Source: Desulfobacterales bacterium
Lineage (GTDB): Bacteria; Desulfobacterota; Desulfobacteria; Desulfobacterales; Desulfosalsimonadaceae
Reading direction: 5' to 3'
DNA: 64,000 nt
Assembly (NCBI GenBank): GCA_034520365.1
Contig: JAXHNP010000002.1
Span: 248,001-312,000 of the forward strand
A program made the position numbers and the translations under genes. Below the pieces are notes generated by a model. The model saw only the letters and a program-made list of their open reading frames with translations, searched no databases and was not told the origin of the DNA. Below, one piece after another: positions 38,979-64,000 of the stretch (position 1 is the first letter of the stretch; each line of letters starts with the position of its first letter).

Positions 38979-39287
38979 TTAAACCATGACAACCGAGTTT
39001 TCGCTGCCTGAAATGCCGCTTGGGACATATTTATCCGCTTCCCCGTCATTTTCCCATTTGTTTTGATCAAGGAAGTATCGAAACTGGTATTCCTGGTCAA
39101 TGGGTAAATCTATGGTAACGGTGAATGACCCGTTTTTCAATTTTTTCATCCGGGTTTTTTGGGTGTCCCAGTTGTTGAAACTTCCCACAAGATAGGCTGA
39201 GTCCGAATTCTTGGCGACTTCCGGGGGCAGCCGGAAGGTGACCTTGCAAACCGGCTTGGTTTTTAAGTATTGTTTTTTCAAACTCAT
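38979..39287 (-). CDS. Glycogen-binding CBM48/AMPK-type domain protein
   Basis: This 102-residue protein consists of one early-set beta-sandwich: CKVTFRLPPEVAKNSDSAYL, then VGSFNNWDTQKTRMKKLKNG, then YQFRYFLDQNKWENDGEADK. The W/N residues of the glycogen-binding site are conserved. It has no catalytic domain, so it may tether partner enzymes to glycogen. Its ATG overlaps the debranching-enzyme stop codon (ATGA), showing translational coupling. Confidence 0.9.
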   Translation of the reverse strand: MSLKKQYLKTKPVCKVTFRLPPEVAKNSDSAYLVGSFNNWDTQKTRMKKLKNGSFTVTIDLPIDQEYQFRYFLDQNKWENDGEADKYVPSGISGSENSVVMV

Positions 39288-42200
39288 GATGGGTCTTCCT
39301 TTCTTGAATCAGTTAATTTCCGCCAAACGCGGAGCAATTCGCTAACGCCCCAGGCCTGGGCATCACAGCCCCGTTCGGTATGCGGGGCGTCACCGTCGAT
39401 GATTTCGGGAATCTGCCCCGCGCATCCGGTATTTAAGAGCCGGCTGCTGTTGGAAAGCCAGGACAGGGCAGTATCTGTGCCCGAATCGCCATAGCTCATG
39501 GCCCAGGCTTCGCAAAATGACGGAAACACCCAGGTCCAGGCCGTACCGTTATGATAGGCGGGTTTTCGCCGGGTATCCTCATCCCCTGTGTATATCCCCT
39601 GATAAGGATGATAGGGGTCATTTAACAGCCGGTCGTTATGCCGGATCTCCAAGGGCCGGGTCACCGGACGATCTGCCAGGCTGCGGATGGCACCGGGCAC
39701 TAAAAGCTCCAGGCAGTTATCCAACAGGCTGCGGACGCGCTTCGGGTCTGAAACAGCGCCCAGGGTAACGGCAAAAAGCTGGTTGGGCCGCAGGGCATCA
39801 TCCGGCTCGGCCTGGGCGGCCGGTACAAATGAATCGGCGTGCCGGCAGTCCGAAAGGTAGCCTTTGGATTGTAGCACAAATAATTCTTCTATCGAGGATC
39901 TGACCTTTTCAGCCAGTGCGTCCCAGTCACCGTCGGGGTCGTCCAGTTTAGCCAGCATCCGAAGAGCAAAATGCCACAGAGCCTGAATCTCAATCGGATA
40001 GCCCTGCCGCGGCGAGCCGGCGGGATGATTGGTATCCATCCAGGTAAAATGGGCGGGAGAATAAATCAGGCCGCTTTCCTCATCCATTTTGATGCCGTTG
40101 GGCGTTCCTTGAATATAGCCACGGGCAATAGCAGCCAGCACATCAATAATCTTTCGATGCCCGACGGATTTTTCAATGAATTCGTTGCCTCCCAAGGCAT
40201 TCATCAACTCATCACAGGCCACGAAAAACCATAGGGGCGCATCCGAGGTGTCCCGGTTGCTGGCATCATTTCCGCGGATCATATTCGGCAGGGTCCCGTT
40301 TTCTTCAAATGCGGCAAACTGCATCAGGATGGCTTCTGATTCAGTCAAATAGCCCGCAGCTATCAGTCCGCGGATGACGATCAGGGTGTCCCGGCCCCAA
40401 TCCAGGAACCAGGGGTATCCGGCAATTATCGTATACAGGTCTCCGCGGCGGACGACAAACGCCTTAAGGGCATCTTTTAAAGCGGATTCAAACGGGGCGT
40501 ACGGCTCACCGGGTATATTGTTATCCGCCAACTGTTCATTTGAACCGGCAGATGCCGGGACATCCGGTTCGGCATTCACACTTGCCGTAAGCCCCACGGT
40601 TTGGCCGCCGGTTAAATAGATGGAGAAATAGCCCGGACTGAAAAGATCTGTATGCGGATCCATGTGCCGGTCGGCTTCCACCGGCAGGTGAATCATATAC
40701 TGCCATTCCGGCTCCCACACGAAATCGCCGGCAGAGGTTTGGCAGAGAAGTTTTCGGCCCGGGTCAGGGCTAAATTCGAAGCCGTTCTCCATAACCCCGC
40801 AGCTATCCGGGAAGTGATGTTCCGGCCCCATAAACGCCTTGGTATTTGCATGAAAATTACGGTCATCAATATCCGGCCGAATGATCAGCCGTACGGGCTT
40901 ATCATCCGGCAGCCGGTCCGATGCGTCGCCGGCGGTCTGGCGGTTGATAGTTATTATTACCTGATTTTCATTGGGGATCATACGTGCGGTAAACAGCAGG
41001 GAAACATGCTGGCCCTGTCCGCAGGGGATGGTAAAGTGCCAAGTGCCGCCGGCCGCGTTTTGAAGCCAGAACTGTTCCTGGCATTCAATGCCCACGTCCT
41101 GGGAATAGCCCTGAAAAACCAGCCAGGCCCGGCACCGGGAGAGCATGATATGCCGGTCGTCCGGATAATCCGGATTTAAATTGGCGGCCAAAAGCCCATC
41201 ATACTTACTGCTGATCTGTGACCAGGCCGCATGGGCGCGCATCATGGCGCCCCGGCCGTTAGTGCCCAGACATTTAAGCGGGGCCTGATTAAGCGTGCTT
41301 CGGTTAAAAACTTTCTGCGCATACACCTGATCCGGGGCTGCCAGATAAAGCAGACCGGATTCGGTATGGGTATAGCCGTCCCCGTTAAACATGGAAAGCT
41401 TTAAGGTTCGATGCATATGTCCATCTGCAGACGGCAGCGGGGGAAACAGGGCAAAAAACATCCCGTCTGTGCGGCATAAAGCATCCCCGGTTAACCGGGT
41501 TTTTTCGCCGTGTTTGGTCTGCTCAATGATCCTTGCGCGAAACGGCTGCGGCGCCTCAATCATCAGCAGGTGGCCCGCGGGAATCATTACCCGGCGCCGG
41601 CAGTCGGACGGCCATAGCCATGGGACCACCCGGGCCTCATCACCAGCGGGGTTCATTTGCCGGCAGAATCCTATGGGATCAGAAGCCAGGGCATCTGCTG
41701 CCGAATCCGGATCAAAACCGCCCAGGTGGCTGGTGCCGTGGTAAACCAGAAACACTTCAAGCGCGGCCGCCCGAAGCCGCTGCCTGGCGATTCTTTCCGG
41801 AAGTCCCGGCGTATTATCGGCCGGAGCGGCCTGCTCCCCCGGGCAGAGGCAATAAACCCGGCCGGGGGGAAGGGAAATCGTATAACCCTCATGATTGGAG
41901 GTATTTATCTCAATGCGTTGATCAGTCAGGAGATCCGTGTAGACGGCATCCCCGATTCCGGCATCACTCGGGGACCAGCAGGCCTCATTCGGCTGATCCG
42001 TATCCAGATTCACCAGTATCAGAAGATTTTGCCCGGAGGGCCGATGCTTTCGGGAAAAGACCAGAATATTGGCCGCGCCGGTCTGGATCATCCGGATGTC
42101 GGTATTATCAAAAAAAGCCGGATGGGTTTTAAGGAGTTTGTTGATTCGGCGGATCTGATCCACCTGATTCTCAGTGCTTCCCCAGTTAAGGGATTTGGCG

Positions 42201-43591
42201 TCATGGACCTCGATTTTTTCATCTGCAAACCATTCCACCCCGTTGGCAAATCCAAACGCCCCGTTATGGGAACAAAGCGCACAGAGCGCGGTGCGCATGG
42301 CCGCAAACCGCTTGGAGGTAGCTGCCAGACGGTTGTTGTCATGGGTTTCGGCAAAATGCACCATCAGCCCGTCCGCTTCGGAAATCCGCATGGGCTCGGG
42401 CAGGTAATGCGCAATCTGATCCCGGGTGTAATTCTGAAACAGTTCGGAATAGGCCCAGTCAAATCCGCCCTTATTAAGGATATCGCGGGTCACTGACATC
42501 TTTCCGCCCAGACCCTCAAGAAAAAATATGGTTTCCGGAAATTCCTGCCGAACCACGGAAACAATATACATCCAGGCCCAAACCGGGATCATGTAGCCGG
42601 CATCGCATCGAAAGCCGTCAACCCCGCGCCGGCACCAGGTCAGAAACACCTCGCCCATATACATCCACAGATCCTTATACTGGTAGTCCAGCCGGGCCAG
42701 ATCCTCCCAGATGACGCCCCAAGCGCCGGGGCGCTCGATGTTTCCCGATTCGTCCCGAACCAGCCAGTAGGGGTGGGTTTCATGGATTTCCGCCGCCCAG
42801 CCGGTATGATTGGGGGCAATATCTAAGATCAGTTTGGCGCTTCTGGCATGAACCGCATCCACCAGCTCGATAAACTGCTCAAGCGGCGTGGCCTTGGGGT
42901 CAAACCGGGCGAGCGCCGGATCAATGCCGGTGAAATCCAGGGATGCGTAAGGACTGCCGAATCGGCCCATCCGGCCGTAAGTGGTGGGCGTTGGGTTAAT
43001 GGGCAGCAGGTGAATGATCCGGCATCCCAGATCGTCAATAATAAAATCGAGTTCCGCAATCAAATCCCGGAAAGTCCCGGACGGGGGTATAACCGTATAG
43101 CCGGTTTTATCCAGCTGACGGATATCATCTTCTTTCTCTTCCGGCAGACAGAACGAGCCGTCCTTATTGGGGCCGAACTGACGCACGAACGCATTGTAGA
43201 TGATATTAGCGCAGCAGGTATCCGTGGGCGCCACATTGATCGTCAGGTTGTCGCCCGAAGGCCACCTGGGCGTAAATTCCCCGGATGGCAGAAAGAAGCA
43301 TTTGGCCTCGAAATGGCCCACTTCGCAAAGGGGGAGCTTTATTTCAAAAGACCGCTCGTCAATTGGTTGCATGGGGATATCATACCATTCCCGGCCCAGC
43401 AGCGGTTCATCATGGGTTACCGCCCGGACGATTTGCCGGCGGATGGTCTGGATCTGCCCGAGATTGGTCCGTACCCAGGCACCGCCCTTATATGACGTCG
43501 TCAGGCTAAGCGTAAGGGTTATCGTATCCCCCCGGGTTTTTAATAAATGAAGTCCCGGTTCAGGATGTTGTTGAAGGGAGAAATCCGTCAT
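39284..43591 (-). CDS. Two-domain glycogen debranching enzyme (GH13 amylase/transferase plus amylo-1,6-glucosidase)
   Basis: The 1435-residue protein joins two catalytic units. The N-terminal part (about 130-600) is a GH13 barrel with GVDGFRCDAGYM (nucleophile Asp), TIFFLEGLGGKM (acid Glu) and HFAETHDNNRLA. The C-terminal part (about 1040-1430) is an alpha/alpha-toroid of the amylo-alpha-1,6-glucosidase family, with FLDWGRDTLIVIRGL and GLIYSPAHFTWMDTNHPAG. This arrangement parallels eukaryotic debranching enzyme, which combines 4-alpha-glucanotransferase and glucosidase. The ATG at 43591 is preferred over 43657 because it starts the recognisable sequence. It is the first gene of the glycogen cluster. 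Confidence 0.9.
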   Translation of the reverse strand: MTDFSLQQHPEPGLHLLKTRGDTITLTLSLTTSYKGGAWVRTNLGQIQTIRRQIVRAVTHDEPLLGREWYDIPMQPIDERSFEIKLPLCEVGHFEAKCFFLPSGEFTPRWPSGDNLTINVAPTDTCCANIIYNAFVRQFGPNKDGSFCLPEEKEDDIRQLDKTGYTVIPPSGTFRDLIAELDFIIDDLGCRIIHLLPINPTPTTYGRMGRFGSPYASLDFTGIDPALARFDPKATPLEQFIELVDAVHARSAKLILDIAPNHTGWAAEIHETHPYWLVRDESGNIERPGAWGVIWEDLARLDYQYKDLWMYMGEVFLTWCRRGVDGFRCDAGYMIPVWAWMYIVSVVRQEFPETIFFLEGLGGKMSVTRDILNKGGFDWAYSELFQNYTRDQIAHYLPEPMRISEADGLMVHFAETHDNNRLAATSKRFAAMRTALCALCSHNGAFGFANGVEWFADEKIEVHDAKSLNWGSTENQVDQIRRINKLLKTHPAFFDNTDIRMIQTGAANILVFSRKHRPSGQNLLILVNLDTDQPNEACWSPSDAGIGDAVYTDLLTDQRIEINTSNHEGYTISLPPGRVYCLCPGEQAAPADNTPGLPERIARQRLRAAALEVFLVYHGTSHLGGFDPDSAADALASDPIGFCRQMNPAGDEARVVPWLWPSDCRRRVMIPAGHLLMIEAPQPFRARIIEQTKHGEKTRLTGDALCRTDGMFFALFPPLPSADGHMHRTLKLSMFNGDGYTHTESGLLYLAAPDQVYAQKVFNRSTLNQAPLKCLGTNGRGAMMRAHAAWSQISSKYDGLLAANLNPDYPDDRHIMLSRCRAWLVFQGYSQDVGIECQEQFWLQNAAGGTWHFTIPCGQGQHVSLLFTARMIPNENQVIITINRQTAGDASDRLPDDKPVRLIIRPDIDDRNFHANTKAFMGPEHHFPDSCGVMENGFEFSPDPGRKLLCQTSAGDFVWEPEWQYMIHLPVEADRHMDPHTDLFSPGYFSIYLTGGQTVGLTASVNAEPDVPASAGSNEQLADNNIPGEPYAPFESALKDALKAFVVRRGDLYTIIAGYPWFLDWGRDTLIVIRGLIAAGYLTESEAILMQFAAFEENGTLPNMIRGNDASNRDTSDAPLWFFVACDELMNALGGNEFIEKSVGHRKIIDVLAAIARGYIQGTPNGIKMDEESGLIYSPAHFTWMDTNHPAGSPRQGYPIEIQALWHFALRMLAKLDDPDGDWDALAEKVRSSIEELFVLQSKGYLSDCRHADSFVPAAQAEPDDALRPNQLFAVTLGAVSDPKRVRSLLDNCLELLVPGAIRSLADRPVTRPLEIRHNDRLLNDPYHPYQGIYTGDEDTRRKPAYHNGTAWTWVFPSFCEAWAMSYGDSGTDTALSWLSNSSRLLNTGCAGQIPEIIDGDAPHTERGCDAQAWGVSELLRVWRKLTDSRKEDPS

Positions 43592-43825
43592 AGATATTAC
43601 TTCGCTAAACAATTTGGCAAATTTATGAAAAAAGGGCGGTGCTTGATTGAAAGGCAATCCCCTGAAGCCCGTTGGGTCCGCTCTTGTGCTGTTTCAATTT
43701 CCGGCTCTGAGTTGCAAAAAAGAATTTCCGGCACTATTTACTTATACGCTGATTCATATTAGGCTGTCTATTCAAATCATAAGCTTAACATTTCCAGGGT
43801 CAAGCGATAGAAAGGGAAAAAGAAT

Positions 43826-48159: not shown

Positions 48160-49223
48160 TTAATATGAAATCGACATGTTGACGGAGCCGAATTTCTGGT
48201 TGCCGTCCTGTTCCTCAAATGATTCCGTTCTGATCACGTAGGCCATGCTGAGCTTGACCTTGCCCATTATTATTCCCAGGCCGGTGACATAATCGGCCAC
48301 CACCGGCTTTTTGTCCACGCTGTGGCTGTCTGAGAATGTATTGCCGTCTAAAAATATATCCCTTAAGACCGCTTTTCCGTCAACAGAGCAAAACAGGTGC
48401 AGACCGAAATTTTTATCCGGCGTCATCCGGGGATCGCGCGCATCAAAGGCCCCGTTAAAAGCGCTGGCCGGCCGGATGGGAAAATTTCCGAAATCATTGG
48501 GCATATTCCAGCCCAGGCGAAGCGTAAGCCCCAGGTTGTAGAAGGTCATGGCGTTGCCGAGGCCGCCGCCGGTGTCCAGAATGCACTCATAGCCAAAAGT
48601 GTTGCCGATGTCCGAGTCAACAAGCTTTTTTTGTGGCTGTATACGATGCCGAGCACCGGCTCATCATCCAGCTGATTGTCCCAGCCGTTGGGGTCCTTAT
48701 CATTGAACAGGGCGTGTACGGCCTGCTGGCTTTCTTCCGCATATGAGTGGGGGCCCACCATCCCCAGATAAAGCTCCAGGGTATCCATTGTTTTCGGCGT
48801 CCGGTTGTGAAAACCAATGCTGCCGTATGTGATTCCGGCATAGGGGCGATCATCCTCGATCAAGTCCTCCTCTTCAATGTCTTGCGGGGTATAGATATTC
48901 TGACCGAGGGAGTAGGTGATGTTGTTCCGGTTTTGTTCGGAGTCTTTAAACGGGAGTTTTCTGAGTATCGGATACAGCCACCGATGCGGCCATGCCTTGG
49001 ACGGATAGGCCTGATAGATCGGCGAGCTCCAGGTCAGCTTCAGCCCATTGGTGTAACCCTGATCTTCTCCGGCGAAAATATCGTTTTCAAGATAAATGGT
49101 AAAAGTGCTTAGGTCGCGCTGCAGTTTTTCCGCTGTGAGATCATCACTGGGATATCCGATAAGTGTAAAAATCAGCAGCAGGCTAAAAAATGATCTGTAA
49201 AAAATGTTTGTCCAGTTCCGCAT
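48160..49223 (-). pseudogene. LpxR-like lipid A 3'-O-deacylase (DUF2219), frameshifted at an A7 run
   Basis: The first frame (49223 to 48546) encodes a signal peptide, the N-terminal strand LENDIFAGEDQGYTNGLKL with the conserved Asn-Asp pair, and VGPHSYAEESQQAVH with GWDNQLDDEPVLGIVYSHKK. The second frame (48549 to 48160) continues with TFYNLGLTLRLGWNMPNDFG to a terminal aromatic strand. One extra A in the seven-A run (T7 at 48626-48632) restores a single 354-residue beta-barrel, and the bridging codons then read KKKLVDSDIGNTFGYECILD, as in the family. It may be a pseudogene, a phase-variable gene or a sequencing error. Confidence 0.85.
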
Positions 49224-50409: not shown

Positions 50410-51258
50410 TTATAGGTGGCCATTAACCCACTTTTCAAGATCTGCCAGTACCCGCTCCCGGTCTTTCGGGGCTTCATTATAGATTTCATGGTAGAGCCCT
50501 TCATAAAAATGTAGGGTCTTATCTTTCACGGTGAGGCTGTCAAAGAATTTACGGGCGGTCTGTGCCGATACCAAATGGTCATCCCCCGCCACCTGCATGA
50601 GAATGGGGGTTTTAATCGACGGGGCAGAGCGGATCGTATCGGCCATGGCATCCACATACTCCGTAAACCAGCGGGCGGTAACCCAGGGATGAACCAGCGG
50701 GTCATTGTCATAATCGGATACGACTTTGGTGTCATGACTTAAAAACCGGGAGTCCACCTCATTGTTTAAGGCCATTGCCGGCCATATTTTGGACATGATC
50801 CGGCCGGCAGCCCCCTTAATAACCGGTATTTTGTCAGCCGGGGCAAGGCCCGGAGAAGAGGCGATTACGCCGTCGATCATGTGGGGATGTTTTTCCGCGT
50901 AATTTAAAACGATCAACCCCCCCATGCTGTGGCCCAAAAGGAAGCATTTCATGTTTTCAGGCATATCCGTCCGGACGAGTTTCATCATCTGCTGGAGATC
51001 CTCAATATATTGATCAAATCTTTGGATATGCCCCCGCTTGCCCCCGCTCTGCCCATGTCCCCGGTGGTCGATGGCCCATACGGACAGCCCCTTTTGCAGC
51101 AGCCGTTCCATGACATGATGGTATCTGCCGGAATGCTCGCCAAGTCCGTGCGCGATTAAAATCCGGCCGCGTTCCGGGGCGGCCTGGATTTGGCGATAAA
51201 AAATCGGAACATCCGCTGAACCGTTGAAGGAGCCGTTGAATTCCGTATTTGTGGTCAT
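50410..51258 (-). CDS. Alpha/beta hydrolase, monoacylglycerol lipase-like
   Basis: This 282-residue serine hydrolase of the Hydrolase_4 group has the nucleophile elbow LLGHSMGGLIVLNY near residue 108, the acid in MQVAGDDHLVS near 225 and the His in YEGLYHEIYNE near 255. The oxyanion-side motif ILIAHGLGEHSGRYH is near 35, as in monoacylglycerol and lysophospholipases. No signal peptide, so cytoplasmic. Confidence 0.92.
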   Translation of the reverse strand: MTTNTEFNGSFNGSADVPIFYRQIQAAPERGRILIAHGLGEHSGRYHHVMERLLQKGLSVWAIDHRGHGQSGGKRGHIQRFDQYIEDLQQMMKLVRTDMPENMKCFLLGHSMGGLIVLNYAEKHPHMIDGVIASSPGLAPADKIPVIKGAAGRIMSKIWPAMALNNEVDSRFLSHDTKVVSDYDNDPLVHPWVTARWFTEYVDAMADTIRSAPSIKTPILMQVAGDDHLVSAQTARKFFDSLTVKDKTLHFYEGLYHEIYNEAPKDRERVLADLEKWVNGHL

Positions 51259-52781: not shown

Positions 52782-54662
52782 TTAAACCCGGCGCAAAAGC
52801 GCGGCCAGATCGCCCAGTTCCTGTTTTTCCAGCACCGCCGGATCGGGAATGCCGTTCGGATGAATGCCCCGCAGTTCGTAGAATTCCCGAAGCATCAGGT
52901 CCATATCCGGCAGGCTGCCGGCTGTTGGGCCGTCATCGAGTTCGGTCATCAGCCGGCTGGGCACCTGATCATCCTCTGCCCGGGCGCCGAACAGGTTGGT
53001 CAGGCCCCGCTTGAGATACCAGAGCCGGCGGCCGGCCTGCATGATCTCTTCAAGTGTGTAATCAAAACCGGTTGTCGCATTTATGATGGATATGGCCTGT
53101 GTGGCGCTCAATGGCACTGCACCCAGGTTACAGAAGACCGCACAGGATGAAAAAAACATCCCATAGTCCTGGCAGGCCACATTCAACCGGGCCCGATCCT
53201 GGCTGCTGAATTCCTCGTAATCCGCGGCCAGTTCTTCGATTTCCGGGATGAGCTGGGAGCCGCCTTCTACATTAAAATCAAGGCTGGCCTCGTGGCATGC
53301 CCCCCGGGGGGAGACGGCATACGCCAGTGCATAGCCGTGGGCGCTTCTCGGGTCATGCATCGGCGCTTCCATGCGCTTGATCGTGGTCAGAAAATCCGGG
53401 GCATTTCCTCCAAGCCGCCGGGCCGCGGCTTCACTGCCTTCGGCCAAAAGGGCGCCCAGACCCTCTCTTTTGCCGATTTTTTCCGTCATGGCCACAATGG
53501 CTGAGGCGTTGCCCCAGGTTAATTCAAGGCCGCCGGTATCGGATGCGGAAATCAGCCCGTTTTCAAAGCATTCAATGGCAAACGCGATGGTGGCGCCGCA
53601 GGTAATGGTATCCATGCCGTAGCGGTTGCAGATATCATTGGCTTTGGCAATGGATTCAATGTCTGCATTCAGGCACATGGAGCCGAAAGTGGCCACGGTC
53701 TCATATTCCGGGGAGGGGCCCTTGGCCATTTTAAAGGGCCCGTCTTTTACTTCCGCCTCTTTTTTGCAGGCCACGCTGCAGCCATAACAGGTTCTGTGGC
53801 CGGCATGGATTTTCTCCTCGATTTCCGTGGGGCCGATATCATCAATCTGATCCCATTCATTCATCAGCCAGTTTTTGATGGGCACATCGCCGGCCAGGCT
53901 GCCGACATCAATATGGGCCGGGGTACCGCTGGCACGGATGGCATCAATGAAAATGCTTTCTTCGTAGACCTCTTTTAGGTCCTTCTTGATCTCAGCGAGT
54001 TTTTCCGGAGCCGCGGCGTCAATTTTTCCGGTGCCGTTGACATAGATGGCTTTCAGGTTTTTGGCGCCCCAGACCGTCCCCATACCGGCCCGCCCGGCGG
54101 CGTGGCGCTTACTGTTAATAATGGATGCATATTTAACGAGATTCTCGCCGGCCGGCCCGATACAGAAGACCGTGCCCGTGCGGCCGGTTTCGGATTTCAA
54201 GTCAGACACCATGGCCGCATCGGTTTCATAAATATCTTTTCCCCAATAGGCGGCGGCATCCCGGATTTCAACCGTATCGTTATTGATAAAAACGAAGGAA
54301 GGCTTTTCCGCCTGGCCGGTGATGACAATGCCGTCATAGCCGGCAAATTTCAGCCGGGACCCAAAAAATCCGCCGATATTGCTGTCCCCCCAGACGCCGG
54401 TCAACGGTGACTTTGTGCCGACGGTCCATCTGGCAGCGCCATCCAGCTTGAAGCCGGTAGTCGGCCCGGTCATCAGAACAAAGGGGTTGCCCGGATCCAG
54501 CGCATCGATAGCCGGATCATCCTTTATCAGATCAAAATAAATCTGCGCGCCGAATCCCAGGCCGCCGATGTGTTTCCGGGCAAACGCCTTATCCAGTGGT
54601 TTTTTTTCAATTTTCCCGGATGAGAGGTCGATGTAGAGGAGTTGGCCTGCATAGCCGCCCAT
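52782..54662 (-). CDS. aor: Aldehyde:ferredoxin oxidoreductase (tungsten, classical type)
   Basis: This 626-residue enzyme interconverts aldehydes and acids with ferredoxin. Pterin contacts are ARWTVGTKSPLTGVWGDSNI (near 80) and HAAGRAGMGTVWGAKNLKAI (near 190). The cluster motif is the classical TCYGCSVACKK (Cx2Cx3C, near 290), with another Cys in FFSSCAVFCNLG near 520. It ends the sub-operon with an iron alcohol dehydrogenase and an SCP2 protein. Together these could interconvert acid, aldehyde and alcohol. It differs clearly from the AOR paralogue at 26562. Confidence 0.94.
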   Translation of the reverse strand: MGGYAGQLLYIDLSSGKIEKKPLDKAFARKHIGGLGFGAQIYFDLIKDDPAIDALDPGNPFVLMTGPTTGFKLDGAARWTVGTKSPLTGVWGDSNIGGFFGSRLKFAGYDGIVITGQAEKPSFVFINNDTVEIRDAAAYWGKDIYETDAAMVSDLKSETGRTGTVFCIGPAGENLVKYASIINSKRHAAGRAGMGTVWGAKNLKAIYVNGTGKIDAAAPEKLAEIKKDLKEVYEESIFIDAIRASGTPAHIDVGSLAGDVPIKNWLMNEWDQIDDIGPTEIEEKIHAGHRTCYGCSVACKKEAEVKDGPFKMAKGPSPEYETVATFGSMCLNADIESIAKANDICNRYGMDTITCGATIAFAIECFENGLISASDTGGLELTWGNASAIVAMTEKIGKREGLGALLAEGSEAAARRLGGNAPDFLTTIKRMEAPMHDPRSAHGYALAYAVSPRGACHEASLDFNVEGGSQLIPEIEELAADYEEFSSQDRARLNVACQDYGMFFSSCAVFCNLGAVPLSATQAISIINATTGFDYTLEEIMQAGRRLWYLKRGLTNLFGARAEDDQVPSRLMTELDDGPTAGSLPDMDLMLREFYELRGIHPNGIPDPAVLEKQELGDLAALLRRV

Positions 54663-54671
54663 AGTAGCCTC

Positions 54672-55085
54672 CTAATGAATGTTGTATTCGCTGTATCCGT
54701 TGTTATCCAGATACTTGGGATACATTACGTATGTTGGTTTGATTGCCGGGAGGAGCTTCAGGATTTTGGGAATCGGCCCCTTGGCAACCATTTCCTTGCG
54801 GGTCAGGGCCTTGGTGAGGTTGACCTTGCCGAACCAGAATTTGTGAGCAATGTCAGCGGTCATGGACATTTCAACTGTTGCCTTGGTCTCCGTGTCATGG
54901 GGCCGGACATCGATTTTATCGCCTGAGCAGTCAACCACGATAATTAGGTCCGGATCCGTGTACTTGAACCGAATGATCAGATTTGATTTAAGCAGTTTGT
55001 CTGCAATATGGGGCGTCTCCGCCAATTCCCGGAAAAAACCGCCCAAGACCTCTTCAAATTTTTCAGTACTTTCGAATAAACCCAT
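54672..55085 (-). CDS. SCP2 sterol-binding domain protein
   Basis: This 137-residue single-domain SCP2 protein has the closing signature HKFWFGKVNLTKALTRKEMV, with a C-terminal helix carrying a proline-rich loop. SCP2 domains bind fatty acyl-CoA or other lipids in a hydrophobic tunnel. Lying nine bases before the AOR gene and 39 after the alcohol dehydrogenase, it may hold a hydrophobic substrate for them. It is more divergent than the two SCP2 domains fused in the downstream-numbered genes. Confidence 0.88.
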   Translation of the reverse strand: MGLFESTEKFEEVLGGFFRELAETPHIADKLLKSNLIIRFKYTDPDLIIVVDCSGDKIDVRPHDTETKATVEMSMTADIAHKFWFGKVNLTKALTRKEMVAKGPIPKILKLLPAIKPTYVMYPKYLDNNGYSEYNIH

Positions 55086-55124: not shown

Positions 55125-56300
55125 TTAAAAGGCCCTTTGGATATAGGGCAATAATTCTTCCGGCTCAACTTCGCGGGGATTGTAAAAAGAGGTTCCGTCA
55201 TTAACCGTACCTTCGGCGATATCCGCCAGTCCGTCTTCGGGGACCCCGACTTCGCTCAATTTAATGGGCAGGGTGCCCAGCTCGTGAAGCTTGCCGGTCA
55301 GCTTCCGGACCGCTTCAATGGCTTTTTGGGCAGCCTCTTCCTCAGGCAGGCCGGAGACGGTCTCTCCCATAACCGGGGCCAGGCGGGCGAGCTTTTCCGT
55401 AATTTCTTCGAAATTATATTCCATGCCATACGGTAGATAAATCGCGTTGGCCTCTCCATGGGGTACCCGGAAGAGGGCGCCGGTGACATGGGCCATGCCG
55501 TGGACACACCCGACCATGGAATGGGTGAATGCGATGCCGGCCATGGCGGCGGCAATTAACATGGCGCCCCTGGCTTCTGCGTCCTCGCCGTCTTCAGTAG
55601 CGGCTACAAGGTATTTCATGATCAGTTCGATGGCCCCTGCAGCAAAGGCGTCAGAAAAAGGCGAAGCTTCAATTCCCACATAGGCTTCAATGGAATGGGT
55701 CAGGGCATCCATACCTGTGGAAGCCGTGAGTTTCGGCGGCAATGAAAAGGTAACTTCCGGATCCAGTACAGCCAGATTCGGCTGCAGGAATTTATCTGCA
55801 AAAACGAGTTTTTCCTTATTCTCCTCGTCATAGATAACCGCCACCATTGTGACTTCGCTGCCGGTGCCGGCAGTTGTGGGGACAACGATATGCGGCTTTA
55901 ACGGCCGGGTCAGGAGATGCCCGCCGGAATAATCCTCGACCAGATCACCGCCCTCGGAGAAGATGATATTGACCGCCTTGGCTGTATCAATGACACTGCC
56001 GCCGCCAATGGAGATGATGCCTTCGGCACCGGAAGCTTTAACCGCTTCCGTACATGTATTTACATCACTTAACCGGGCATCCTGCTTGACATCGAGGAAG
56101 GTGCCCACCATTTCACAGCCGGCTTCCGCAAGTCCGTCAGCCAGCTTCTGAACCAGGCCAATGTCATTGAGGATATGATCGGAGACAACAAAGTATTTTT
56201 TGATGCCGATAATATCAAGCTCAGGTTTTAAATCAGAAATGATACCAGGTTCATACACAACCTTGGTGGGACTGTAGAATGCAAAGAATTCAGGTAACAT
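55125..56300 (-). CDS. Iron-dependent alcohol dehydrogenase
   Basis: This 391-residue group III dehydrogenase interconverts alcohols and aldehydes with NAD(P)H. GGGSVIDTAKAVNI (near 95) binds the nucleotide. Metal ligands lie in STGMDALTHSIEAYVG (Asp, His), SMVGCVHGMAHVTGALFRVP (His) and HGEANAIYLPYG (His). The ATG at 56300 has AAGGAG just upstream; the longer frame to 56450 lacks a ribosome-binding site. It is the first gene of a sub-operon with its own promoter. Confidence 0.94.
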   Translation of the reverse strand: MLPEFFAFYSPTKVVYEPGIISDLKPELDIIGIKKYFVVSDHILNDIGLVQKLADGLAEAGCEMVGTFLDVKQDARLSDVNTCTEAVKASGAEGIISIGGGSVIDTAKAVNIIFSEGGDLVEDYSGGHLLTRPLKPHIVVPTTAGTGSEVTMVAVIYDEENKEKLVFADKFLQPNLAVLDPEVTFSLPPKLTASTGMDALTHSIEAYVGIEASPFSDAFAAGAIELIMKYLVAATEDGEDAEARGAMLIAAAMAGIAFTHSMVGCVHGMAHVTGALFRVPHGEANAIYLPYGMEYNFEEITEKLARLAPVMGETVSGLPEEEAAQKAIEAVRKLTGKLHELGTLPIKLSEVGVPEDGLADIAEGTVNDGTSFYNPREVEPEELLPYIQRAF

Positions 56301-56358
56301 GACGCGCTCCTTGATTGGGATTGCAGAATTAAAATTAAGTCGGCCGACCAGCTTAGTT

Positions 56359-56387
56359 TTTTTAGCAGCCCTTATTTTTCCCGTCAA
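56359..56387 (-). promoter_or_regulatory. Candidate promoter for the alcohol dehydrogenase/SCP2/AOR unit
   Basis: On the minus strand TTGACG (56382-56387) and TAAAAA (56359-56364) are 17 bases apart, putting a start near 56352 and a 50-base leader before the ATG at 56300. It lies between the dispersed hairpin at 56564-56639 and the gene. Confidence 0.45.
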
Positions 56388-56563
56388 GTAATTTCCCGCA
56401 TAATACAAGAAAAATGGGGGGTTATAAAAAAGCAGGCTATACGAAAACATCGATTATTCGTAGGATATCTGTTTCGTGCGCCCATAGGTCCTGATAAATC
56501 TCCGGCCGCCTGAGAAAGCTGGATGGAAATATGCGCTTTATTTTATTGCGCGTCGTGTGCTAA

Positions 56564-58531: not shown

Positions 58532-59740
58532 CTATCCCTCGTGTTTGCCGATAATTGATATGCTGCAGATATTCTGGAACGGAAACCCGCCCAGGTTATG
58601 GGTAAGCCCAAGCCTCGGATTTTCAAGCTGGCGCTTATCCGCCCGGCCATGGAGCTGCAGATACATTTCATAGAGCATCCGAAGGCCGGATGCGCCAATG
58701 GGGTGGCCGAAGCATTTGAGTCCGCCGTCGACCTGGCAGGGGACCTGGCCGTCCAGATCATAAAACCCGTCCATGATATCATAGACCGCTTTGCCCCGTT
58801 CGGAGATATGCATGTCCTCGTAGGTGACCAGTTCTGTTATGGAGAAGCAGTCATGGAGTTCCATCATGCTGATCTCTTCCCGGGGGTTGGTCACGCCTGC
58901 CTCTTCATAGGCCTTGGTGCTGCATTTTGAGGTGGTCATGAAGTGATCCCCGTCCCATTCATCATAGCCCAGCTCCTCGCCGCTGCTAAGTGCCAGCTGC
59001 AGGGCCTTGACGGTGATAAAATCCTTTTTTCCCATTTTCTTAGCCATTTCCGGCGTCGTGACGATGGCGCAGGCCGAGCCGTCACTGACCCCGCAGCAGT
59101 CAAAGAGCCCCAGCGGATGAGCGATAATGGGAGATGCCATTACCTGGTCTTCGGTGACGGCTTTCTGCAGATGGGCCTTGGGGTTCAATGTCCCGTTGGC
59201 ATGGCTTTTTGCGGAAACATGGGCCATGGCCCGTTTCAGTTCATCATCCTTGATTTTATACTTTGCCGAATATGCGCTGGCAAGCTGGGCAAAAGAGCCG
59301 GGGGCGGTCAGATTGGGCCACCACTGCCAGAGCAGGGAGCCCGAGCCGGAGCCGGCTGCCGGAAGCCCCCCATAGCCGGTATCTTTTAATTTTTCAACAC
59401 CAAGGGCCAGGCAGATGTCATACGCGCCGGAAGCAACGGCGTAGCAGGCCCCGCGAAATGCTTCCGTGCCGGTGGCGCAGTAGTTTTCCACCCGGGTGAC
59501 CGGAATCATGGGCAGGCGCAGGGTGGTGGCCAGCGGCATGGCGGTTTTACCCACATTGATTTCATCCATGCAGGTGCCGAACCATGCGGCTTCAATCTCG
59601 GTATCCTCAATATTGGCGTCTGCCAGGCACTCCTCATAGGCTTCCAGCATGAGTTCTTCAGCGCCCACATCCCAGCGTTCACCAAATTTGGTGCATCCCA
59701 TGCCGATGATGGCGACTTTATCTTTTATTCCTGTAGCCAT
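58532..59740 (-). CDS. SCP2-type thiolase (acetyl-CoA acyltransferase-like)
   Basis: This 402-residue thiolase of the SCPx/archaeal type has the nucleophilic Cys at residue 88 (VENYCATGTEAFRGA), the first His in MELHDCFSITELVTYED and the second active-site block CFGHPIGASGLRMLYE. All catalytic residues appear intact. It is encoded directly before (in transcription, after) a protein containing an HMG-CoA-synthase-like and a DUF35 domain. In archaea a thiolase of this type forms a complex with those two proteins, so physical association is plausible here. Confidence 0.94.
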   Translation of the reverse strand: MATGIKDKVAIIGMGCTKFGERWDVGAEELMLEAYEECLADANIEDTEIEAAWFGTCMDEINVGKTAMPLATTLRLPMIPVTRVENYCATGTEAFRGACYAVASGAYDICLALGVEKLKDTGYGGLPAAGSGSGSLLWQWWPNLTAPGSFAQLASAYSAKYKIKDDELKRAMAHVSAKSHANGTLNPKAHLQKAVTEDQVMASPIIAHPLGLFDCCGVSDGSACAIVTTPEMAKKMGKKDFITVKALQLALSSGEELGYDEWDGDHFMTTSKCSTKAYEEAGVTNPREEISMMELHDCFSITELVTYEDMHISERGKAVYDIMDGFYDLDGQVPCQVDGGLKCFGHPIGASGLRMLYEMYLQLHGRADKRQLENPRLGLTHNLGGFPFQNICSISIIGKHEG

Positions 59741-59769: not shown

Positions 59770-62502
59770 TTAAAATGAAAACAGTTTGCCGATCAACTGG
59801 GATTTCATCACATCCCCGTCAATTTTTAACTTCCCGGACGTAAACGCCTTCATGGGATCGAGCCTCCCGGAGATCATATCCACAAAATCCCCGTCCGCCA
59901 TTTTCAGCGTGCAGGTGGGCTTCTCCGCCTTGCCGGGCGCCACCTCGCAGGTGCCGTCTTTGACCGTTACGGTCCAGTCGCCGCCGTCAGTACCGGAGAT
60001 TGAATACTGGAAGACCACGTCCACGCCTTTGGCGGCATCCGGATTGAATGCATCCGGCATTTTATCAAACACGTCCTTTACGCGCATGCCGCTGCCGCCG
60101 GCTTCCTCCCCGCCGCCGGCTACCTTTTTGGGCTGCGGGGGCGAGACCAGCCCAAAAAGGGCCGCATTGGCGTCTTCATAGATCTGGGCGCCGTCCAGGT
60201 CATTTATTTTATCGATGTTTTCGCTGACCTGCTCGGGTGTAGGCGGGTTTTCCGCATCCCCCAGCTGAACCCCCGGGCTGGTCAGTATGGCGGCCCGGTT
60301 GTAATAGCCCATGCCGGCATTAAATATCTTGCCGCTTTGATTGCAGGCTTCGCTTGAGAGGTAGAGCACTATCGGGGAGACAAATTCCGGCTTCATTTTT
60401 TCAAAAATATCCGGGGGCATGATATCTTCGGTTAACCGGGAACCGGCAAGCGGGGCAATGGTATTCACATTGATGTTGTATTTCTGCCCCTCGATGCGAA
60501 GCGTGTTCATCAGGCCGATAAGCGCCATCTTGGCGGATGAGTAATTGCTCTGGCCGAAATTACCGTAAAGTCCGGCCCCGGAGGTAGTCATGATGATCCG
60601 GCCGTATTTCTGCTCCCGCATTACCTTAACTGCCGGGCGGGTAACGTTGTAGGCGCCGTTTAGATGCACCGCCTGTACGGCCTGCCAATGTTCCGGCTCC
60701 ATCTTGACAAAGCTTTTATCCCTTAAAATACCGGCGTTGTTTATAACGATATCCACGCGGCCGAAGGCGTCCACTGCGGTCTTGATAATGTTTTCCCCGC
60801 CTTCCGGCTTGGCCACATTGTCATAATTGGCCACTGCCTGGCCGCCGAATTCCTTGATTTCATTTACCACCTGCTGCGCAGGGGTGGCTGATCCCTCGCC
60901 GGAGCCGTCGCGGGCGCTGCCCAGGTCGTTTACCACCACGCTGGCCCCGCGTTTGGCCAGTTCCAGGGCGTATATCCGGCCCAGTCCGCCGCCGGCACCG
61001 GTGATTACCGCTACCTGGCCGTCAAAGCGGACTTTCTTCATCTCTTCGGCTGCCCCGGGAACAGGCGCTGCCTTCCAGAAGTAGTTGACGAATCCGCGGT
61101 TTTTGTCCTCCGTGCGTTTACGAAACATCATGTAAACCGGCAGGCCCACTTTCAGCTCGTCCAGCTTGCAGTCCGTGAAGTCGGCCATAAACCGGCCGCC
61201 GCCCTCAAACTGGATCATCCCGTAAGTGTGCGGCGGATCCACGGAAACGGCCAGGAGGTCGCCGGTAAAGGTTTTGATTTTAGCCGGGATATTGGCAAAC
61301 TCATAATCCTCCTGGGTATGCCGGGCACGGCAGTGGGGATTGACGCAGACATCGGTCTTGGGAAACTGAGGCGTCTGACACTTGGTGCATTTACCGCCAA
61401 CCAGGCCCAGAATCATTTTTCGCCTTCGCCATAGGGTGGTGAGTGCGGTCTGGGTGGGGGCTTCGGCGCGAATGCCCATATCCGGCTGAATAATATCTCT
61501 GAATTCAAGGAATTTTGCGTATTTATCGATGGTTTCCTTGTTTTCCAGGGTCTTCTTAAACTTATCCCGCGGCTTAAGGTTCAGGATGTTCTCTGTGACA
61601 ACAAAATAGAAGGCGCTGCAGCCCTGGCCGAAGCTCGCCATCAGAATCCGGTCGCCCGGCTTGGCATCATCCAGGGCCGCGGTCATCATCAGCATGGGGT
61701 GGGCGCATCCGGTATCCCCGCAGACCTCGTGCAGGTTATCCATCACTTTTTCCGGGGCCGCCCCCAGTTTTTTGGCGATTTTTTTATGCTCTGCCTTGAA
61801 AAAGCAGGGATAGACCAGCTTGTCCACATCATCCATGGTGATATTCAGCTTGGCAAGCAGGCCGTTGACACCTTCAGGAATGATTTTGGAATAGCCCTCG
61901 TCACGTACCCAGCGCTCCTCCCAGTTGTAGTCGTAGCGCTTGAGTGCGCCCCGGTAGTGATCAATAAAATCATAGGAGACCGAATAGGAGCCCTTGAATT
62001 CGGCAATTACATCCGTATTTCCGATTAAAAACGCGGCTGCGCCGTCGCCGAACCACATCTCATGGAAATAGGCGGGCTTGGTTTCGCGTTTATCCGTGGC
62101 TGACACCAATAAACTGTCACGCTCTCCGCTTTTGACGGATTCAATGGCTGCGAGCAGGGCGTTGGTGCCCGCTTTCTGAGAAGAGGTGAAATCTGCGGTC
62201 ATGATGTCCGCCCGCAGATTAAGTGCCGTGGACAAAATGCCTGCATTCTGCCGGTCGGCAAATGGGAAGGTGGTGGAGGCCAGCATGAGGCCATCCAAGT
62301 TTTCTTTTTTATGCTGTGTCAGGCACTCTTTGGAAGCCGTAACCGCCATGGTGATGGCGTCTTCATCCCAGTTGCACATGGACCGCTCCCCCTGGGCCAC
62401 CATGACAATGGCCGGGGCAAACCATCCCATGTTTTCATAGATCGCCATGCGGTTTAACCGCAGGCGGGGAATATATGCACCGTAATCAGTAATCCCAATC
62501 AT
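59770..62502 (-). CDS. Four-domain fusion: HMG-CoA-synthase-like, DUF35/OB-fold, short-chain dehydrogenase, SCP2
   Basis: The 910 residues contain four domains. Residues 1-340 form a thiolase-fold domain of the HMG-CoA synthase group. Residues 365-480 form a DUF35 zinc-ribbon/OB-fold with Cys 372, 375, 386 and 391. Residues 493-745 form an SDR with TGAGGGLGR and the SNYSSAK Tyr-Lys pair, and 810-910 an SCP2 domain. By my alignment to archaeal HMG-CoA synthase, catalytic Glu, Cys and His are replaced by Thr77, Gln109 and Pro232. The first domain may therefore be a scaffold or a decarboxylase-like relative. The SDR and SCP2 should be an active 3-hydroxyacyl-CoA dehydrogenase and lipid-binding unit. 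Thirty bases separate it from the thiolase gene. Confidence 0.9.
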   Translation of the reverse strand: MIGITDYGAYIPRLRLNRMAIYENMGWFAPAIVMVAQGERSMCNWDEDAITMAVTASKECLTQHKKENLDGLMLASTTFPFADRQNAGILSTALNLRADIMTADFTSSQKAGTNALLAAIESVKSGERDSLLVSATDKRETKPAYFHEMWFGDGAAAFLIGNTDVIAEFKGSYSVSYDFIDHYRGALKRYDYNWEERWVRDEGYSKIIPEGVNGLLAKLNITMDDVDKLVYPCFFKAEHKKIAKKLGAAPEKVMDNLHEVCGDTGCAHPMLMMTAALDDAKPGDRILMASFGQGCSAFYFVVTENILNLKPRDKFKKTLENKETIDKYAKFLEFRDIIQPDMGIRAEAPTQTALTTLWRRRKMILGLVGGKCTKCQTPQFPKTDVCVNPHCRARHTQEDYEFANIPAKIKTFTGDLLAVSVDPPHTYGMIQFEGGGRFMADFTDCKLDELKVGLPVYMMFRKRTEDKNRGFVNYFWKAAPVPGAAEEMKKVRFDGQVAVITGAGGGLGRIYALELAKRGASVVVNDLGSARDGSGEGSATPAQQVVNEIKEFGGQAVANYDNVAKPEGGENIIKTAVDAFGRVDIVINNAGILRDKSFVKMEPEHWQAVQAVHLNGAYNVTRPAVKVMREQKYGRIIMTTSGAGLYGNFGQSNYSSAKMALIGLMNTLRIEGQKYNINVNTIAPLAGSRLTEDIMPPDIFEKMKPEFVSPIVLYLSSEACNQSGKIFNAGMGYYNRAAILTSPGVQLGDAENPPTPEQVSENIDKINDLDGAQIYEDANAALFGLVSPPQPKKVAGGGEEAGGSGMRVKDVFDKMPDAFNPDAAKGVDVVFQYSISGTDGGDWTVTVKDGTCEVAPGKAEKPTCTLKMADGDFVDMISGRLDPMKAFTSGKLKIDGDVMKSQLIGKLFSF

Positions 62503-62531: not shown

Positions 62532-64000
62532 TTACATCTTAAACAGTTTTTCGATCAACTGAGATTTCATGATATCGCCTTCGATTTTTAATTTTCCGGA
62601 GGTATATGCCTGCATGGCCGGCAGGGTCCCGTTGATCATATCCAGAAAATCCGAATCCTTCATTTTAAGCGTGCAGGTCGGTTTTTCATGGACCCCGGAT
62701 TCAATGGTGCACTGCTGGTCCTTGATCACGCAATACCAGTCGCCGCTGTCATCGCCGGAAATGTGGTATTGGAATATGACGTCCGCGCCTTTTGCGGCAT
62801 CCGGATCAAAGGCCTGGGCCATGGCATCAAAGACCGCCGGCACCGACGTCATTTTTCCGCTGCTGTCGCCGGTTTGCTGCGAAGGCTTGGAAAATGCGTT
62901 GATCACGTCGCCTACCTGTTCGTTGAGTTCTGAATATTCTTTGCCGCCTTTTAAACTGTCAATGGCGTTAAATTGATCCATAACAGCTTCAATGGTGGGC
63001 GGATTCTCGCCGTCGCCAAGGGTTGTCCCGGGGCCGGTCACCACCGCGGCCCGGTTAAAGCTGTTCACGCCGGCATTATAGATAAAGCCGGTCTCCTTGC
63101 AGCGGCCGGAGGCGAGATAGACCACAATCGGGGCCACGAATTCGGGTTTGACCTTATCCAGCAGATCCTGGGGCAGCACATCTTCGGTTAGCCTTGAGGC
63201 GGCCAGGGGCGCCACGGTGTTGACCCGGATATTGTATTTTTTTCCCTCCAGTTTGAGGGTGTTCATCAGCCCGACCAGGCCCATTTTGGCGGCGCTGTAG
63301 TTGGATTGGCCGAAATTGCCATACAGCCCGGCCGCAGAGGTAGTCATAATAATCCGGCCGTAGCCCTTTTCCCGCATAACTTTAACTGCCGGGCGGGTTA
63401 CGTGATAGGCGCCGTTTAGGTGCACATCCACAACGGTCTGCCAGTTTTCCGGCTCCATCTTGACAAAGCTCTTATCTCTCAGGATACCCGCATTATTGAT
63501 CAGAATGTCCACGGTGCCGAATGCATCCAGGGCGGTTTTGATGATATTTTCCCCGCCGTCCGGGGTGGCCACGTTATCGTAATTGGCCACTGCCTGGCCG
63601 CCATCTGCCTTGATTTCGTTTACCACCTCGTCTGCGGGTGTTGCGGCCCCGCCGGTGCCGTCCCGGCTTCCGCCAAAATCGTTGACCACGACTTTGGCCC
63701 CCCGCCGGGCCAGTTCCAGTGCATATACCCGGCCCAGTCCGCCGCCTGCCCCGGTGATCACCGCCACCTGGTCATCAAATCGGATTTCGTCCTTGGGAAC
63801 TTCACCATATTCAAAAACCCCGTTGGTAATGATCACCTCGTCCGTTCGGCTATTGACAGTCTGCCACACCGCCTGGTTATCTTCGGTTTTCCAGATCCGG
63901 GTTTTAATGGGATCACCAGGATAGAGGGGTCTTGAAAAACGGCATTTCATGCGTCGAAGTTTTTCCGGCTCGCCAGGGGTCAAACTGTTAATTAACGCCC
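62532..64000 (-). CDS. Multifunctional beta-oxidation protein: MaoC-like hydratase (partial), SDR, SCP2 (cut by window end)
   Basis: The frame stays open to the last base, so the N-terminus lies outside. The first visible residues (RMKCRFSRPLYPGDPIKTRI) are the end of a MaoC-type hotdog hydratase. An SDR follows (VAVITGAGGGLGRVYALELA, with SNYSAAKMG), then a C-terminal SCP2 domain. The order matches peroxisomal multifunctional enzyme 2 with domains rearranged, so it should hydrate enoyl-CoA and oxidise 3-hydroxyacyl-CoA. Its SDR-SCP2 half is a close paralogue of the one in the neighbouring four-domain protein. Confidence 0.9.
   Translation of the reverse strand, partial: ALINSLTPGEPEKLRRMKCRFSRPLYPGDPIKTRIWKTEDNQAVWQTVNSRTDEVIITNGVFEYGEVPKDEIRFDDQVAVITGAGGGLGRVYALELARRGAKVVVNDFGGSRDGTGGAATPADEVVNEIKADGGQAVANYDNVATPDGGENIIKTALDAFGTVDILINNAGILRDKSFVKMEPENWQTVVDVHLNGAYHVTRPAVKVMREKGYGRIIMTTSAAGLYGNFGQSNYSAAKMGLVGLMNTLKLEGKKYNIRVNTVAPLAASRLTEDVLPQDLLDKVKPEFVAPIVVYLASGRCKETGFIYNAGVNSFNRAAVVTGPGTTLGDGENPPTIEAVMDQFNAIDSLKGGKEYSELNEQVGDVINAFSKPSQQTGDSSGKMTSVPAVFDAMAQAFDPDAAKGADVIFQYHISGDDSGDWYCVIKDQQCTIESGVHEKPTCTLKMKDSDFLDMINGTLPAMQAYTSGKLKIEGDIMKSQLIEKLFKM

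Follow-up and report, generated by a model that had tools for sequence, protein, structure and literature searches.

A fused bacterial protein whose HMG-CoA-synthase-like domain lacks the catalytic residues, encoded beside a separate thiolase

The window we analysed is a 64,000-nucleotide stretch from a Desulfobacterales bacterium (GenBank assembly GCA_034520365.1, contig JAXHNP010000002.1, positions 248,001 to 312,000 of the forward strand). Its minus strand encodes a protein of 910 residues that joins a domain resembling 3-hydroxy-3-methylglutaryl-CoA (HMG-CoA) synthase (HMGS), a DUF35 part, a short-chain dehydrogenase/reductase (SDR) and an SCP2 domain, and a thiolase is encoded by the next gene. 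The parts of the fused gene and its neighbour are as follows.

59770..62502 (-), whole fused gene, 910 residues in one open reading frame (Pfam, AlphaFold2)
61483..62502 (-), HMGS-like domain, residues 1-340, with Thr77, Gln109 and Pro232 in place of Glu, Cys and His (NCBIfam, PDB sequence match, alignment, Foldseek, VIA-align)
62272..62274 (-), codon of Thr77, where archaeal HMGS has its catalytic Glu (alignment)
62176..62178 (-), codon of Gln109, where archaeal HMGS has its catalytic Cys; most relatives have Gln or Leu here (alignment)
61807..61809 (-), codon of Pro232, where archaeal HMGS has its catalytic His (alignment)
61054..61452 (-), DUF35 part, a four-Cys zinc ribbon plus OB fold, residues 351-483 (Pfam zf-ChsH2 and OB_ChsH2_C above cut-off; PDB match)
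60268..61038 (-), SDR, residues 489-745, closest to the (3R)-hydroxyacyl-CoA dehydrogenases of MFE-2 proteins, with Ser-Tyr-Lys intact (Pfam, PDB match)
59773..60090 (-), SCP2 lipid-binding domain, residues 805-910 (Pfam)
58532..59740 (-), partner thiolase of the SCP2-thiolase/archaeal type, 402 residues, with Cys88 and the motifs HDCF, GHP and HNLGG intact (Pfam, NCBIfam, PDB match, alignment)

The HMGS-like domain and its closest relatives

Pfam matches follow one another along the protein as ACP_syn_III_C (216-297), zf-ChsH2 (367-394), OB_ChsH2_C (420-461), adh_short (496-684) and SCP2 (818-908), which bears out the single four-part frame described in an earlier, sequence-only reading of this DNA. 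No hydratase 2 match to Pfam was found within the fused chain; that domain belongs to the MFE-2 (multifunctional enzyme type 2) gene upstream. The full-length AlphaFold2 model had a mean predicted local distance difference test score (pLDDT) of 75.6 and a predicted template modelling score (pTM) of 0.57, with low-confidence stretches that include the linkers at residues 338-359 and 790-804; for the model of residues 1-484 these values were 85.6 and 0.88. A pseudogene or a sequencing error was rejected, since the frame is single and open in the window, full-length open frames occur across many other genomes, and the loss of catalytic residues described below recurs in 113 related domains.

When the protein was aligned with the archaeal HMGS chain 6esq_I, the catalytic Glu, Cys and His fell on Thr77, Gln109 and Pro232, exactly as the sequence-only reading had placed them. 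Its claim that all three are lost extends to the relatives: none of the catalytic residues was seen in 113 related domains with more than 250 aligned residues (93 from fused proteins and 20 that are unfused or cut, amounting to 96 distinct sequences), two being unreadable at the Cys site and one having a gap at the His site. These domains were drawn from two overlapping collections, 32 from the loci L002, L003 and L005-L034 and 81 from L035-L114 (L001 and L004 were dropped), and some of the 20 counted as unfused are merely cut by a contig end (L073, L102). The Glu position is Thr and the His position is Pro in all 93 fused domains, and four plasmid-borne relatives, examined out of 52 matching plasmid records, likewise lack the three residues. 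The HMG-CoA synthase models of NCBIfam (NF003274 and TIGR00748) cover residues 1-338 with scores under both cut-offs (209.8 versus 244 and 149.7 versus 353.35 bits). HMG-CoA reductase gave no match in the host's own genome, which is 99.39% complete, with a query that as a control was positive in 5 of 14 genomes; 1-deoxy-D-xylulose 5-phosphate reductoisomerase (DXR) was found, and there is therefore no evident need of HMG-CoA for isoprenoid synthesis. An HMG-CoA synthase proper was rejected on the grounds of the lost residues, the scores below cut-off and the lack of an HMG-CoA reductase match in the host, and the domain is, judged by its sequence, catalytically dead. For such proteins, family models and the annotation of records suggest an HMG-CoA synthase, the C-terminal part of 3-oxoacyl-ACP synthase III or an OB-fold protein, and these labels thus point to mevalonate or fatty-acid synthesis.

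Two explanations would leave the domain with a chemistry of its own. Decarboxylating ketosynthases of the KSQ type carry a conserved Gln at the Cys position, and Gln109 had been read as an echo of this change. Gln is indeed the commonest residue there (67 of the 93 fused domains, and 38 of 63 in the L035-L114 loci, without the overlapping collection), but the site varies: Leu is found in 23 fused domains and Met in one, with two unreadable (23, one and one in L035-L114), and 12 of the 20 other domains have Leu, Thr, Met or Ile there. This variability speaks against a KSQ-like synthase that decarboxylates by means of Gln109, the Glu and His positions are lost too, and we hold such an enzyme to be extremely improbable. 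Alternatively, the fold might still be enzymatic through a re-invented site, for example Cys233 with His268 or His258, catalysing a new acyl-CoA reaction. Cys233, which the earlier reading had singled out for a check as a possible active-site Cys, directly follows the old His position and is kept in 93 of 93 fused domains; together with His258 and His268 it is invariant in a full-length alignment of 40 rows (the window's protein and 39 of its 42 complete fused relatives). It is missing, however, from all four plasmid relatives, and 85% of the 20 domains that are unfused or cut have it. Cys233 was accordingly rejected as a universal nucleophile, and a re-invented site seems improbable.

A different precedent, missed by the sequence-only reading, is the acyltransferase PhlACB. 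The HMGS part found its best PDB sequence matches in the PhlA chains from two phloroglucinol acyltransferases (136.1 and 127.5 bits), ahead of archaeal HMGS (101.2 bits) and, more weakly, MucABC (84.6 bits), and the DUF35 segment matched 6esq_E and PhlB. With the model of residues 1-484, Foldseek ranked the PhlA chains first by E-value, and VIA-align placed archaeal HMGS at the top (Z 46.2), followed by the PhlA chains (44.9 and 44.3). The superposition on 6esq_I (root-mean-square deviation 1.9 Å over 333 residues), whose output gives ranges and not residue pairs, confirmed the HMGS fold. As described in passages of the PhlACB paper (PMC6392133), PhlA lacks the key HMGS Cys and Glu and has no direct part in acyl transfer, PhlB mediates binding between the PhlA and PhlC dimers, and only residues of PhlC, which has a thiolase fold with Cys88, take part in the transfer. 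A nearest sequence relative of this kind does not favour the earlier proposal that the HMGS domain was retooled as a catalyst.

Both PhlACB/PpATase (PDB 5m3k, 5mg5) and CsATase (9skh) thus resemble the present system in an HMGS-fold part without the catalytic Cys and Glu, a zinc-ribbon/OB DUF35 and a separate Cys88 thiolase-fold subunit. They differ in that here the A and B parts form one chain, extended by SDR and SCP2, whose gene belongs to a beta-oxidation-like operon. Where archaeal HMGS has Glu, Cys and His, PhlA carries Cys, Gly and Gln, and the fused protein Thr, Gln and Pro. By its dead HMGS fold, its four-Cys DUF35 and the neighbouring thiolase with a nucleophilic Cys, the fused protein would appear to belong to the PhlACB type. 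PhlACB itself assembles as (A2C2)2B4, and the operon context suggests a chemistry other than its C-acyl transfer to phenols. The archaeal acetoacetyl-CoA thiolase/DUF35/HMGS complex (6esq) shares the fold, the three-part composition and the closest thiolase, and the kinship with it that had been proposed is supported. Its HMGS is active, whereas here the three residues are gone and the genome gave no reductase match. The idea of a covalently fused version of that complex holds in part: the HMGS and DUF35 parts do lie in one chain, but the thiolase is unfused and has its own gene 29 bp downstream.

Partner thiolase, dehydrogenase tail and gene order

The neighbouring thiolase matched, in the PDB, the archaeal acetoacetyl-CoA thiolase (180.6 bits), 7yvy (180.0), 4yzo (154.3), benzoylsuccinyl-CoA thiolase (151.2) and SCP2-thiolase (137.7), and PhlC chains with 79.0 to 91.2 bits only. 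It is intact, as had been noted from its Cys88: this residue, His296, Cys298, His346 and His381 are kept in 65 of 65 aligned copies. All four thiolases of the plasmid relatives have Cys88, HDCF and the GHP His, and three of them have the HNLGG His, which is replaced by Gln in L117. BbsAB, the benzoylsuccinyl-CoA thiolase, works in the beta-oxidation of anaerobic toluene degradation. It is a DUF35-assisted thiolase (7pxp) whose thiolase subunit is the one matched here, and its description in passages of PMC12329534 mentions no HMGS-fold subunit, in which it differs from the present system.

The zinc-ribbon Cys372, Cys375, Cys386 and Cys391 are invariant in 44 aligned sequences. The SDR found its top PDB matches in yeast Fox2 (2et6, 451.2 bits over two matched domains) and HSD17B4 (1gz6 and 1zbq, 322.8 and 322.2 bits), that is, in peroxisomal MFE-2 proteins, and all 62 fused and all 52 MFE-2 rows (the host's own MFE-2 being counted twice) retain its catalytic Ser, Tyr and Lys. 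The place of the classical SDR Asn is taken by His613, as in 1gz6 and 2et6, and this residue is invariant in the 40 aligned fused proteins. The residue after His613-Leu614 varies (Asn in 35 of 62 fused and 34 of 52 MFE-2 rows); as this column is not the catalytic position, it is uninformative on SDR activity. Of 57 fused relatives with the stop codon within the contig, 11 gave no SCP2 match, and the domain is therefore accessory.

The fused gene is part of a run of minus-strand genes, in the order MFE-2, fused gene, thiolase, acyl-CoA dehydrogenase, iron-type alcohol dehydrogenase, SCP2 protein and aldehyde ferredoxin oxidoreductase, with a class III CoA-transferase and a TetR regulator lying divergently upstream. 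Gaps of 29 bp, with a Shine-Dalgarno-like AGGAG, flank the fused gene on both sides, and 13 bp separate the thiolase stop from the likely ATG of the acyl-CoA dehydrogenase. The further genes of the run are listed here.

62532..63998 (-), MFE-2 (hydratase 2, MaoC, SDR, SCP2), truncated at the edge of the window; the full gene lies in L004 at 2533-4638 (-), 701 residues
56659..58518 (-), acyl-CoA dehydrogenase (Pfam), with its likely ATG at 58518; a longer open reading frame to 58782 overlaps the thiolase
55125..56450 (-), iron-type alcohol dehydrogenase (Pfam, NCBIfam)
54672..55085 (-), stand-alone SCP2 protein (Pfam)
52782..54662 (-), aldehyde ferredoxin oxidoreductase (domain match)

The alcohol dehydrogenase, the aldehyde oxidoreductase and the class III CoA-transferase hint at an acid derived from an alcohol or aldehyde as the substrate. 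An alpha/beta hydrolase of the Hydrolase_4 type is encoded at 50410-51258 (-) of the window and in L093, and a similar-looking one lies near the operon in 4 of 80 relative loci; such a neighbour may possibly hint at a lipid substrate.

Residues 1-484 were matched at 1e-20 in 138 of 389 genomes of the host's class, its own included. Among the matches listed, those of about 62% identity or more have an open frame mostly of 700-1000 residues, with some shorter, and those of 39-56% identity mostly of 480-590 residues. A scan of genome contigs, of which the best 80 of 277 confirmed relatives were kept, gave 63 fused, 15 unfused and two undecidable loci; one of those counted as unfused (L054) is a fused gene with its frame broken in the HMGS part, and two HMGS frames occur in L054, L094, L103 and L113. 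As judged from the titles of their records, the fused loci come mostly from Desulfobacterales, Syntrophales and Desulfomonile, with one from Chloroflexi (L098), and the taxa with unfused loci include Chloroflexi, Poribacteria and Abyssobacteria. A thiolase is the next gene in 52 of the 63 fused loci (eight leave no room for it, three lack it) and in 14 of the 15 unfused ones, L054 being the exception. Directly upstream stands an SDR gene, mostly a full MFE-2, in 54 of the 63 fused loci (eight without room, one absent); among the 15 unfused loci there is one in three (L054, and a lone SDR in L101 and L112), with ten absent and two without room. Among the 80 loci, 29 have a TetR regulator as a neighbour, 23 an acyl-CoA dehydrogenase, 13 a CoA-transferase and 7 an iron-type alcohol dehydrogenase; these counts are lower bounds because of short flanks, and the functions were assigned from Pfam matches of the window counterparts and by reading the sequences.

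On plasmids of other bacteria the parts that are fused here stand adjacent and unfused. A thiolase follows the HMGS-like/DUF35 gene in all four plasmid regions, including those of Azoarcus KH32C and Variovorax SRS16, and in two of the four, from Sphingomonas paeninsulae and Variovorax paradoxus, SDR, MaoC, HMGS-like/DUF35 and thiolase are separate adjacent genes. Two plasmid relatives adjoin acyl-CoA dehydrogenase genes, one of them also a ring-hydroxylating dioxygenase. The host's own genome has three HMGS-like/DUF35 genes, each with a thiolase next to it. Its contigs C2, C3, C6, C7 and C8 hold twelve Thiolase_C_1-type thiolases and seven DUF35 OB domains, so that more DUF35-thiolase systems are present than these three pairs. 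In L060 (CP070694.1, Desulfobacterales bin60) the fused gene has no recognisable MFE-2 or thiolase neighbour, and its 3' flank contains 100 N; the arrangement is possibly an assembly join.

By alignment, the SDR-SCP2 tails of the fused protein and of the upstream MFE-2 are paralogous. Mean SDR identity was 76.2% between the two genes of one locus (48 loci) versus 71.8% between loci; fused copies compared with one another gave 72.6%, and MFE-2 copies 74.8%. On a quick SDR tree the labels 'fused' and 'MFE-2' require 12 changes, at least five of them on well-supported branches. In L070 the first eleven 60-bp windows of SDR DNA are 82-98% identical between the two genes, seven of them 92-98%, and identity falls to 47-63% in the linker; such patches of high DNA identity between the SDR-SCP2 parts of MFE-2 and fused gene, dropping in the linker, were seen in L070, L069 and L090. 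The longest exact runs within a locus (45 loci) reached 96, 67 and 56 bp, with a median of 25, whereas 120 pairs drawn at random across loci gave at most 33, with a median of 17; as these control pairs differ also in genome, part of the excess is due to codon usage. We read the long patches as gene conversion between neighbouring SDRs in some genomes. A likeness of the SDRs kept up by conversion would agree with a substrate common to both or with mixed dimers of the two.

A probable non-catalytic scaffold for a beta-oxidation thiolase

Taken together, it is probable that the fused protein is a non-catalytic PhlA/PhlB-like scaffold joined to a beta-oxidation dehydrogenase, which it would dock to the separately encoded thiolase. 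Residues 1-483 would be the counterparts of PhlA plus PhlB, and equally of the HMGS and DUF35 subunits of the archaeal complex. By homology with these, the dead HMGS-fold dimer and the zinc-ribbon/OB bridge may bind the thiolase and line its CoA/acyl site, the HMGS fold probably adding to the structure and forming part of the CoA site. MFE-2, encoded next door, would make a (3R)-3-hydroxyacyl-CoA with its hydratase-2 domain, the fused SDR, or that of MFE-2 itself, would oxidise it to the 3-oxoacyl-CoA, and the docked thiolase would cleave this product by means of Cys88. SCP2 may hold the lipid part of the substrate and would be optional. The analysis shows which domains are present, that the HMGS residues are lost and those of SDR and thiolase kept, that the gene order is conserved and that the genes stand unfused side by side in other bacteria; the physical complex, the oxidative direction of flux and the handover of the CoA ester are inferred. 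The role in acyl-CoA chemistry that the sequence-only reading had assigned to the protein is supported. Its proposed flow of substrate from the synthase domain to the SDR is not, as the kinship of the SDR with MFE-2 dehydrogenases means that in beta-oxidation it would precede the thiolase, not follow a synthase. Fusion sets the protein apart from peroxisomal MFE-2 as well, since its SDR-SCP2 tail is attached to the HMGS-like/DUF35 scaffold and not to hydratase 2.

The proposed logic would parallel that of Shy-Sal, in which, according to passages of PMC12329534, DUF35 docks the preceding pathway enzyme, a hydratase, onto a thiolase-fold aldolase; the same arrangement is described there for the steroid hydratase-aldolase ChsH1-ChsH2-Ltp2. 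Those systems combine a hydratase with an aldolase, whereas here a dehydrogenase and a Cys88 thiolase are combined, plus the HMGS fold. The likeness in docking raises the possibility that the fused protein belongs to a retro-aldolase complex of the Sal-Shy or Ltp2-ChsH2 kind, whose aldehyde or ketone would feed the alcohol dehydrogenase and the aldehyde ferredoxin oxidoreductase encoded in the same run. The SDR, however, would yield a 3-oxo thioester, which is a thiolase substrate and not an aldol, and the thiolase keeps Cys88, HDCF, GHP and HNLGG in 65 of 65 copies, where CtSal has a YDCY motif instead (passages of PMC12329534). We therefore regard a retro-aldolase as very improbable.

A biosynthetic complex in the manner of PhlACB would run in the opposite direction, as a reverse beta-oxidation: the thiolase on its scaffold would perform acyl transfer or a Claisen condensation, and the SDR would reduce the 3-oxo product to a (3R)-hydroxyacyl-CoA. 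In its favour, the nearest sequences of known structure, PhlA and less closely MucABC, belong to acyltransferases. Each step could in principle also run backwards, and models of reductases match the SDR as well. Against this, the neighbours look catabolic, both in the 80 loci (acyl-CoA dehydrogenase, CoA-transferase, iron-type alcohol dehydrogenase, TetR) and beside the two plasmid relatives with acyl-CoA dehydrogenase genes, one of which also has the dioxygenase gene, and the thiolase is nearer to the archaeal and benzoylsuccinyl-CoA thiolases than to PhlC. A biosynthetic role is, in our judgement, unlikely.

Several observations nevertheless weigh against a catabolic docking scaffold. PhlACB itself is an acyltransferase and not a thiolase. 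With its low inter-domain confidence the full-length model shows no fixed path from SDR to thiolase, and the authors of the Sal/Shy work hold, in passages of PMC12329534, that flexible linkers are inconsistent with direct channelling. The upstream MFE-2 already brings an SDR and an SCP2 domain, which by simple stoichiometry makes a second copy superfluous. Zinc-ribbon Cys residues are lost in two of the four plasmid relatives, so the DUF35 bridge is not uniformly built. Three of the 63 fused loci have no thiolase next door, one of them with only 304 bp left and one beside a run of N. Finally, the HMGS-fold residues Arg139, Asp153, His182, Trp194, Arg197 and His268 are invariant in the fused family, and ligand binding or residual chemistry is therefore possible.

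In yeast Fox2 tandem SDRs pair with each other. A similar pairing might gather all steps into one body, the dead HMGS dimer forming the core of a soluble beta-oxidation machine in which DUF35 carries the thiolase, the tail carries the (3R)-hydroxyacyl-CoA dehydrogenase, and SDR-SDR pairing recruits the hydratase of MFE-2. The two SDRs would then be homogenised by gene conversion because selection keeps the pair compatible. We offer this assembly tentatively and consider it doubtful; if true, bacteria would possess a counterpart to the peroxisomal MFE-2/SCPx route.

Should the scaffold reading be true, a large bacterial family, found in more than a third of the genomes of the host's class that were searched, would serve as a non-catalytic scaffold for catabolic thiolases. 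A dead enzyme would have been turned into a joint between two beta-oxidation steps, and the fused protein would offer a natural single-chain version for testing DUF35 docking and substrate handover. The DUF35 docking logic is so far described for PhlACB, the archaeal complex, BbsAB and steroid aldolases (passages of PMC12329534). Among the papers that the literature searches listed, none was found to describe the present fusion, as judged by titles and the beginnings of abstracts, and passages of two papers on anaerobic degradation contain no mention of DUF35, an OB-fold or hydroxymethylglutaryl. What would be new is the fusion of a dead HMGS/DUF35 scaffold to an MFE-2 dehydrogenase; in other respects the protein would work like PhlACB, or like the archaeal complex with its A subunit dead.

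Other features of the window

Two further loci of the window drew our attention. An LpxR-like lipid A deacylase gene at 48160-49223 (-) consists of two overlapping frames, of 225 and 129 residues, that match consecutive parts of the LpxR profile in Pfam, and the split is due to a frameshift or an assembly error. A frame of 1457 residues at 39284-43657 (-) combines an alpha-amylase-like domain with the N and C domains of a glycogen debranching enzyme, and it adjoins phosphorylase-like and starch-synthase-like genes.

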